From Thermococcus thermotolerans (GTDB lineage: Archaea > Methanobacteriota_B > Thermococci > Thermococcales > Thermococcaceae), in assembly GCF_024707485.1 (NCBI RefSeq), contig NZ_CP102602.1:558001-622000 (forward strand): a stretch of DNA of 64,000 nt. The letters run 5' to 3'. The position numbers were made by a program, and so were the translations under genes. The first letter of the stretch is position 1, and each line of letters starts with the position of its first letter. Below are positions 53,893-56,139 of this stretch, piece after piece. Below the pieces are notes generated by a model that was given only the letters and a program-made list of their open reading frames with translations, was not told where the DNA came from and did no database searches.

Positions 53893-54666
53893 ATGATAAG
53901 GAATATGAACAGCTATCCCCTCTACGATGACGGAGAACATAGGGTTTACTGGCTCGGTATTGAGGAGGCCGAAGACGAAAAGGGCATCCTCACGAATCAA
54001 TATCTTGTTATAGACGGGAACGAGGGAGCTTTGATAGAGCCAGGTGGTTTCTTTGTCTTCTCGCGAGTGCTCAAGAACGTCTCGGCACTGATTCCACCGA
54101 CGCAGATAAAGTACCTTATGTACTCCCATCAGGACCCAGATGTTGTTGCGGGCCTGAACCTCTGGTTTGAGTACGCTCCGCTTGCAAAGGTCGCCATTTC
54201 AGAGCTCTGGGTTCGCTTCATTCCCCACATGGCGGTGCTGAGCGCAGGGAGAACCATTGGAATTCCCGATAAGGGGGCCGAGCTTAAACTTGGAAACTCG
54301 GTGATAAGGGCAATCCCCTCCCATTACCTGCACAGTCCTGGCAACTTCTCGTTCTACGATGAGAAGAGCGGGATACTCTTCAGTACAGACATAGGGGCGG
54401 CCGCCTTCCCCAAGGGCGAGTGGTACCTCTTCGTTGAAGACTTCGAAAAACACGTCAAACTCATGGAAGGCTTTCACAGGAGATATATGAGCTCGACGAA
54501 GGGCCTGAAGGCGTGGGTTCGCTCAGTTAGAAGGCTGAACCCAAAGACCATAGCTCCCCAGCACGGTGCGATATTCAGGGACGAGAACGTTGGCAAATTC
54601 CTTGACTGGCTCGAAAGCCTAGAAGTTGGAATAGACGTCTTTGAAAAGGAATTCTACGGGGACTGA
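53893..54666 (+). CDS. ODP-type (oxygen-binding di-iron) metallo-beta-lactamase-fold protein
   Basis: 257 aa from ATG 53893; GGGAGGTG lies upstream. MBL fold with di-iron ligand motifs YSHQDPDVVAGL (HxDxD-like), SHYLHSPGNFSFYD and APQHGAIF, arranged as in the ODP domain of FprA/FDP-like proteins. No flavodoxin domain, so redox partners must be separate. Possible oxygen sensor, or NO/O2 reductase component. Its end overlaps the convergent HAD gene by 13 nt. Confidence 0.85.
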   Translation: MIRNMNSYPLYDDGEHRVYWLGIEEAEDEKGILTNQYLVIDGNEGALIEPGGFFVFSRVLKNVSALIPPTQIKYLMYSHQDPDVVAGLNLWFEYAPLAKVAISELWVRFIPHMAVLSAGRTIGIPDKGAELKLGNSVIRAIPSHYLHSPGNFSFYDEKSGILFSTDIGAAAFPKGEWYLFVEDFEKHVKLMEGFHRRYMSSTKGLKAWVRSVRRLNPKTIAPQHGAIFRDENVGKFLDWLESLEVGIDVFEKEFYGD

Positions 54667-55322
54667 GTCCCTAGACTTTTTCTTACCAGTTCCACAAGCT
54701 CCCAGAGATCCTTCACGTAGTAGTCAGCACCCTCGATTTCACCAAAGCGCGTAACGTTGACCACTTTCATTCCAGCGCGCTTTCCGGCGAGCACATCGTG
54801 GCGGCTGTCGCCAACCATCAGTGCTTCCTTCGGCCTAAGCCCGAGTGCCCTCAAGGCTTTTTCAACGAGGTAGGGGTTTGGCTTGACGCCGTCGAGGTTG
54901 GAGTAGTCCTTCCCGTAAACAACCTTGAAGTGCTTCCTCAGACCGAAGAGGTTCAGAACGAACTCCGTGCACTCCTGGGAGGCGTTGCTCACCGCGGCGA
55001 GCCTCAGGCCCATAGCTTTCAGCTCTCTAAGGGCATCAACGTCTGGAAATGCCCGTATCTTTCCCCGTTCGGCCATCCACCGGCGGTACTGGAGGTTCAC
55101 ACCGTCAACGATTTTCCAGAACTCCACGTGGTCTATGCCAAAGCGCTCGACGTAGCTCCTCGGAAGTTCGCCGGTCACCGTCTTTCTGTAGGTCTCGTAG
55201 TCCAGCTCGATGCCGCGCTCCCGGAGGGCCGGCATAACCCACCTCTCATACCATTCCCTGTGATTGTAACCCTCATAGTAAACCAGGGTTTCATCAACGT
55301 CGAATATCAATCCTTTGAGCAT
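54654..55322 (-). CDS. HAD-superfamily hydrolase (phosphoglycolate phosphatase-like)
   Basis: 222 aa from ATG 55322; a longer frame (to 55349) would encode only the sRNA candidate region. Motif I DVDETLVYYEG, motif II AAVSNAS, motif III GVKPNPYLVEKAL (Lys) and motif IV ALMVGDSRHDVLAGKRAGM. A helical cap lies at ~20-85. Subfamily substrate not determined. Its 5' leader overlaps the C/D box sRNA candidate. Confidence 0.88.
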   Translation of the reverse strand: MLKGLIFDVDETLVYYEGYNHREWYERWVMPALRERGIELDYETYRKTVTGELPRSYVERFGIDHVEFWKIVDGVNLQYRRWMAERGKIRAFPDVDALRELKAMGLRLAAVSNASQECTEFVLNLFGLRKHFKVVYGKDYSNLDGVKPNPYLVEKALRALGLRPKEALMVGDSRHDVLAGKRAGMKVVNVTRFGEIEGADYYVKDLWELVELVRKSLGTQSP

Positions 55323-55325
55323 GCC

Positions 55326-55377
55326 TCGGCCTCCTGGACTGGTCATCATCCTTCAGCCGGTTGATCCTTCGTCATCG
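55326..55377 (-). ncRNA. Candidate C/D box guide sRNA targeting 16S rRNA 5' end
   Basis: Minus-strand order: C box variant CGATGA (55372-55377), guide, D' CTGA (55353-55356), spacer AGGA, C' TGATGA (55343-55348), a 13-nt second guide, D-like CCGA (55326-55329). The D' guide ends in AGGATCAACCGG, complementary over 12 nt to the conserved archaeal 16S 5' end (CCGGUUGAUCCU) and directly adjacent to D'. The fifth-nucleotide rule places 2'-O-methylation on the first U of GGUU. Weak points are the non-canonical C and D boxes. Confidence 0.65.
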
Positions 55378-55410
55378 GCGTAGAAAGTAGGAAAAGGGAG
55401 TTAAAAACCT

Positions 55411-56139
55411 TCAGAACAGCTCCTCAAGCTTGACGTCAATCTTGTCCGGGTTGAAGGGCAGGACGTGCCTGGTGGTCTTCGGGGAATAGACCTCGCCGCG
55501 CTTGACGAGCTCCATAACCTCCTCCTTGCTCGGGGCCTTCCTGATGAAGACGTAGTCGATCTCACCCCTGCCCATGTCTTCCCTGGCGTCCTCCTTGAGG
55601 CCGTAGTAGATGAGCTCGATTTTACCCTCAACGCTCATCTCGTCGAGGACCTTGCTGACCTTCTTCTGCTCCTCAAGGCCGCCGGGGATGGAGAAGCTCT
55701 TCTCGCCGACGAGGGCAAAGGCTATCTCACCGCGCTCGGCCTTCTCCTCGGCATTGGGGTCCTCGATGACTTCGAGGCCTTCCTCCTTGAGTCTCTCAAG
55801 GACTTCCTCAAGGCTTCCCTTGAAGGCCGGATACCAGGTGTAGACCTTGACATCATCGCTGAAGTAGTCGAGTATAACCGATGGAGCCCTCTTGGCACCG
55901 AGCTTCTGGAGGCCGGCCCAGCGGTGGTGACCGTCGACGATGAGGTAGGTGTCCTCACCGGGAACCTTGGCGAGGAGCATGGGCTTCCAGAAGATTCCAC
56001 TACCGGTAACGCTCTCGATGAAGGCCTCAAGCTCCTTCTGAACGAGCTGCTCGTGGGGCTTCATCTTGTCGAGCTCGATAAAAACGTAGTCAACCTTCTT
56101 GGTCGGAATGTCGTACTTCGGAACCTTTTCAACTCCCAT
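55411..56139 (-). CDS. serK: ADP-dependent L-serine kinase (SerK-like, ParB fold)
   Basis: 242 aa from ATG 56139, GGGAGGTATG upstream. ParB-like fold with DYVFIELDKMKPHEQL and the LIVDGHHRWAGLQKLGAKRAPSVILDYF motif; E30 and D69 fall where the catalytic residues of T. kodakarensis SerK were described. It phosphorylates free L-serine to O-phosphoserine for cysteine synthesis and is found across Thermococcales. Monocistronic. Confidence 0.88.
   Translation of the reverse strand: MGVEKVPKYDIPTKKVDYVFIELDKMKPHEQLVQKELEAFIESVTGSGIFWKPMLLAKVPGEDTYLIVDGHHRWAGLQKLGAKRAPSVILDYFSDDVKVYTWYPAFKGSLEEVLERLKEEGLEVIEDPNAEEKAERGEIAFALVGEKSFSIPGGLEEQKKVSKVLDEMSVEGKIELIYYGLKEDAREDMGRGEIDYVFIRKAPSKEEVMELVKRGEVYSPKTTRHVLPFNPDKIDVKLEELF

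Follow-up and report, generated by a model that had tools for sequence, protein, structure and literature searches.

The window analyzed here is the whole stretch of 64,000 nucleotides from Thermococcus thermotolerans. On its minus strand, a SerK-like gene is followed by a TATA-like element, a complete C/D box sRNA that can be read directly from the sequence (positions 55379 to 55323), and a HAD hydrolase gene. The features are as follows.

55411 to 56139, minus strand: SerK-like gene with domains SerK_C and ParB_N, whose end lies immediately upstream of the TATA-like element; the same neighbor is found in T. kodakarensis
55401 to 55407, minus strand: TATA-like element TTTTTAA, a proposed promoter ∼20 nt ahead of the point where the sRNA begins
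55323 to 55379, minus strand: whole C/D box sRNA, sR14 family, with terminal stem GCC/GGC of 3 bp (sequence, Rfam, orthologs)
55369 to 55375, minus strand: C box ATGACGA (Rfam sR14 alignment; covariation of its position 5 with position 2 of the D box)
55357 to 55368, minus strand: D' guide AGGATCAACCGG, complementary to 16S nt 4 to 15, with U8 as predicted N+5 target
55353 to 55356, minus strand: D' box CTGA (sequence, orthologs)
55343 to 55349, minus strand: C' box ATGATGA (sequence, orthologs)
55330 to 55342, minus strand: D guide CCAGTCCAGGAGG (type A), 13 nt, whose 3' end is the HAD Shine-Dalgarno sequence GGAGG (55334 to 55330)
55326 to 55329, minus strand: D box CCGA (sequence, Rfam, covariation)
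54654 to 55322, minus strand: HAD hydrolase gene, likely start ATG 55322, with the sRNA as leader (Pfam HAD; start-to-D-box spacing in relatives)

The HAD protein might act in the same phosphoserine pathway as the neighboring SerK-like L-serine kinase. The minus strand of the element reads GCC G ATGACGA AGGATCAACCGG CTGA AGG ATGATGA CCAGTCCAGGAGG CCGA GGC ATG. Boxes C, D', C', and D stand in canonical order with the spacing ATGACGA-12-CTGA-3-ATGATGA-13-CCGA, and box order and guide lengths agree with those of archaeal C/D box RNAs (RUGAUGA, CUGA, guides of ∼10 to 13 nt). A strict C-D'-C'-D pattern matched the 64-kb window once, at this element, and found nothing in 60 first-order Markov shuffles. 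Folding of the free sRNA is unremarkable (z = −1.25), as expected for the class. The original prediction had read the C box as CGATGA, a misplacement, since the Rfam sR14 alignment sets it at ATGACGA (55375 to 55369), and the spacer is therefore exactly the guide AGGATCAACCGG. The predicted C' box is present, but it is ATGATGA, 3 nt after D', and not TGATGA at 4 nt. The C and D boxes had been described as variants; each indeed carries one substitution relative to the consensus, but with the C box correctly identified the two substitutions match each other as a C:C pair.

The D' guide pairs perfectly (12/12) with nt 4 to 15 of 16S rRNA, and the 2.07-Mb genome contains CCGGTTGATCCT at just two places, one antisense to the element and one at the 16S start. 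The guide scored 31 in 16S rRNA, while the maximum among 300 shuffled guides was 25. C/D box RNAs select the methylation site by the N+5 rule, which predicts 2'-O-methylation at 16S U8 from the guide sequence. Among the nucleotides bound by the guide are CCGG (nt 4 to 7), which forms the 5' strand of helix 1 with CCGG (nt 17 to 20) as its partner, and U12-C14, which by homology with E. coli should pair with GGA (nt 863 to 865) as the 5' strand of the central pseudoknot. Because the guide duplex spans both strands and has a free energy of −21.7 kcal/mol versus −9.5 kcal/mol for the local helix 1 hairpin, its formation is expected to exclude helix 1 and the central pseudoknot.

Several Rfam C/D families match at the position of the element. 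The family sR14 (RF01145) matches its full length at 33.1 bits, below the gathering cut-off of 38, and scored 27.0 bits over positions 2 to 37 in the genome scan. As judged by sequence comparison, the element is an sR14 relative by descent, though it falls below the Rfam score: it has the same D' guide and boxes as sR14 members above the cut-off, and a graded series of orthologs is found. Several of these lie at a serK-like locus, including the T. kodakarensis ortholog, whose sR14 match (38.9 bits, 316134 to 316188) lies inside the published circular RNA sR15/Tko-sR16 (316130 to 316191); in this genome, published T. kodakarensis C/D RNAs were found at their published coordinates. sR15/Tko-sR16, which reads CCGTCCGATGATGACGGATCAACCGGCCGAACGGTGACGACATCGGTCTTGTCTGAGGGACA and has the same D' guide as the window element, is expressed and circularized, with 1,629,229 reads and 698 circular reads (PMC9014305). 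Box order, spacing, and the D' guide GGATCAACCGG are common to the window element and sR14 RNAs including sR15/Tko-sR16, which likewise lies directly after a serK-like gene. In contrast, the window element has the D guide CCAGTCCAGGAGG in place of ATCGGTCTTGT or GTCCGCATCAC, a k-turn pair that is C:C rather than U:U, a HAD start 3 nt downstream, and a score below the cut-off. We regard the element as an addition to an already described family of guide RNAs, which the original prediction had not mentioned; standard thresholds miss it, probably because its second guide has been replaced. A circular RNA labeled TK0058 'HAD superfamily hydrolase' (PMC9014305) resembled this arrangement at first sight but was rejected as an ortholog, since the similar protein there shares just 28% identity and the two are encoded on different strands. 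The TK0058 circular RNA is a C/D RNA antisense to a HAD-like protein (L123, 4408 to 4899 and 4912 to 4978), so the published gene label may mislead.

A genus-level DNA search, a family-level sR14 search, and regional fetches yielded 72 parsed orthologs in several genera of the Thermococcaceae, in which the arrangement of boxes and the guide to 16S rRNA are found again. All four boxes are kept in these 72 sequences, as the box conservation test attached to the original prediction demanded. Together with the Rfam C/D matches and the sequenced T. kodakarensis ortholog, this recurrence bears out its central claim, that a C/D box guide sRNA directed at the 16S 5' end lies in the HAD leader. The 11 guide bases adjoining D' are nearly invariant, and the base beside the C box varies freely (A in 24, T in 21, C in 15, and G in 12 of the 72); these per-position counts lean upward, as the parsing regular expression demanded a near-match to the guide, which the homology searches did not. 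The selected guide would then be 11 nt long, so that the 12/12 pairing claimed for the window holds but only 11 of the 12 bases are conserved. The pattern TGAHGANGGATYAACCGGCYGA occurs once each in 64 of the 94 family genomes and is absent from reversed controls. With one mismatch allowed, it had no match in 21 genomes from other families of the same class. A scan of genome contigs with TGATGA-N2-8-GGATCAACCGG-N0-4-CTGA, which probed only other registers because its minimum gap of 2 omits the Thermococcus register, gave five bacterial matches and no archaeal match.

In one genome (G009), two copies lie 842 bp apart (L059, 477 and 1319, both minus strand). One is a normal sR14; the second is degenerate (GGATCAACCCA), has a different D guide, and stands in front of a HAD gene. 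This arrangement looks like a duplication or a recombination with a g4-type leader (g3 to g6 denote genera here). Another C/D-like RNA, whose guide GCATTAACCGG is related, was found at G015:C1:1599888-1599909, G037:C23:3103-3124, and G047:C23:27896-27917, and in G015 and G047 it is present alongside sR14.

The orthologs also clarify the two variant boxes. In the k-turn, position 5 of the C box faces position 2 of the D box (pair 3b:3n). Archaeal C/D RNAs have a strong preference for U:U at 3b:3n (PMC5689011). Among the orthologs, C at C box position 5 was combined with a D box starting CC in 30 genomes and CT in 7, while any other base was combined with CC in 1 and CT in 32. This covariation between U:U and C:C is strong (Fisher P ≈ 5e−12, with orthologs treated as independent and phylogeny ignored). 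Three T. kodakarensis-like genomes show the same double change, as a separate instance, between their C' and D' boxes. The association of C with C suggests that ATGACGA and CCGA in the window are a matched pair and not two defects, and a coordinated change of the 3b:3n pair is possible on this sequence comparison.

The D guides fall into lineage-specific types and turn over while the D' guide stays constant. All D guide targets were scored on the rRNA of the window genome itself. For ATCGGTCTTGT and ATCGGCCTTGA, the best 16S site is 448 to 459 (equaled by 2 of 200 shuffles), and for GTCCGCATCAC, the guide of genus g3, which by its name should be Pyrococcus, it is 759 to 770 (9 of 200 shuffles as good). 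Genus g4 has the type GTCTAGCCTAT, for which a match to tRNAs was rejected because it falls on the antisense strand. No target was found for the type A guide of the window (CAGTCCAGGA) in the 5' leader, 16S rRNA, the ITS and 23S rRNA, or 30 of the 44 tRNAs; its best 16S score was matched by 158 of 200 shuffles. Besides the antisense strand of its own locus, the exact complement of an 11-mer of this guide occurs at only two sites, neither of which has a tRNA gene.

The type A guide is probably also constrained by the gene that follows it. In 23 type A genomes, the HAD start lies 3 nt past the D box, and the guide ends in GGAGG, a Shine-Dalgarno sequence 7 nt from the ATG. The guide has GG as its final two bases in 23 of 23 genomes with HAD at +3 versus 3 of 9 without adjacency, and CAGTCCAGGA is kept in both groups, which suggests two overlapping constraints. 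In the window, ATG 55322 behind GGAGG has better backing, from this spacing and from relatives, than a start at 55349. The longest ATG-started HAD ORF begins at 55349, in frame inside the C' box ATGATGA, so that gene callers may set the HAD start within the sRNA. The original prediction had proposed a search for the element beside HAD genes of relatives, and it was found there in the 23 type A genomes and in genera g4, g5, and g6, where HAD follows within 10 or 20 nt. In many genomes a DUF835 gene separates the two. HAD can be at a distance of 540 to 565 nt, and in other genomes the fetched locus does not contain it; the latter include all g3 copies, which are at other loci. The persistence of the RNA without an adjacent HAD gene argues that it most likely acts in trans. 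A TATA-like word is found upstream of the sRNA in 66 of the 72 orthologs. Seven loci (L023, L024, L034, L088, L091, L094, and L082) have a DUF835 gene between sR14 and HAD or after sR14 without HAD. Right after the sRNA and ahead of this gene stands a conserved motif resembling CACCTACATAACCACTTACAAAAA, which could be a promoter or operator.

We conclude, with a probability of about 0.87, that the element belongs to the sR14 family of archaeal C/D box guide RNAs, acts in trans through its 16S guide, and also forms the HAD leader. Assembly of L7Ae, Nop5, and fibrillarin on C/D k-turn and k-loop motifs is established for this class, and these proteins would assemble on the two motifs of the element. 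The D' guide would then bind 16S nt 4 to 15 and direct the predicted 2'-O-methylation of U8. While bound, it would keep helix 1 open and the 5' pseudoknot strand occupied, which may be functionally important. The most likely transcription start lies behind the TATA-like element after the serK-like gene, with the transcript running into HAD, so that the sRNA would also be the HAD 5' leader, with the Shine-Dalgarno sequence supplied from the D guide. A single transcript would probably yield either mature sRNA or translatable HAD mRNA, as excision of the sRNA would likely remove the Shine-Dalgarno sequence. Of archaeal C/D genes, ∼7% overlap an ORF at its 5' end, and such an overlap lowers expression of the downstream gene according to a review (PMC7994747). 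The window element resembles these in that the start codon lies directly past the D box and sRNA and mRNA would share a transcript; it differs in that the D guide itself ends in the Shine-Dalgarno sequence and in having its own TATA-like element. The element is thus real, conserved, and descended from a known family, and its 5' overlap is a known arrangement as well. Less familiar are the retention of the 16S 5'-end target across the Thermococcaceae and the dual use of the D guide, which makes this a clean natural case of one stretch being both guide RNA and ribosome-binding site.

A chance resemblance in an intergenic stretch has a negligible probability. A 12-nt match to 16S rRNA is expected several times in 64 kb on both strands, which makes the match alone weak, and two of the boxes are variants. 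However, the absence of matches in 60 shuffles, the Rfam match, and above all conservation across genera and at different loci and the sequenced ortholog refute this reading. It is also very improbable that the element is a cis-regulatory k-turn only, on which L7Ae would repress HAD translation while the 16S complementarity is incidental. The element does sit directly on the HAD Shine-Dalgarno sequence, and L7Ae represses mRNAs that carry k-turns in their leaders (PMC5539422), but the RNA is kept with the same, nearly invariant D' guide where HAD is distant or missing from the fetched locus, including g3, and in T. kodakarensis, where no HAD gene is adjacent, the ortholog is abundant as a circular sRNA.

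A third reading takes the element as a functional counterpart of U3 box A, whose main job would be to delay the formation of helix 1 and of the central pseudoknot while 16S rRNA folds, with methylation secondary or absent. We consider this unlikely, though less so than the other two. Like U3, the element is a C/D-class RNA that pairs with the helix 1 and central pseudoknot region of the small subunit, with a duplex that competes with helix 1 and spans the expected pseudoknot strand, and its D' guide is fixed under far stronger constraint than the D guide. In other respects it departs from U3. The guide abuts the D' box with the canonical spacing that suits ordinary methylation guiding, and the window D guide makes no contact with helix 27, which we equate by homology with 16S 845 to 857; type B D guides have this as their second-best site and prefer 448 to 459. 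A search for a counterpart of the U3 hinge pairing with the 5' external spacer, with the D guides against the 287-nt 5' leader, gave no convincing match. Since a resemblance to box A is expected of every guide directed at this conserved site, we take the likeness as one of target and not of homology. Eukaryotic U3 box A occupies the same region, and its release permits pseudoknot formation (PMC9196750). Cryo-EM and mass spectrometry of the P. abyssi 30S subunit listed ac4C17 in helix 1 but not Um8, a point in favor of this reading and against the predicted U8 methylation, although sensitivity may have been low, as only two ribose methylations were listed overall (PMC7005279). According to a 2021 review, U3 and snoRNPs that fold rRNA independently of modification are not known in archaea (PMC8339473). 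If pairing at the 16S 5' end matters for folding, timing of the archaeal central pseudoknot by a guide RNA would be directly testable in the genetically tractable T. kodakarensis.

Finally, six genomes (L028 1565, minus strand; L033 1564, plus strand; L037; L038; L040; and L043) carry a GC-rich insert of 19 to 21 nt between D' and C'. These inserts (e.g., GACCGCGCTTCACGCGGCGCC) are mostly hairpin-like and would convert the usual k-loop to a stem-closed k-turn, comparable to that of the artificially stabilized st-sR26 (PMC7089733).
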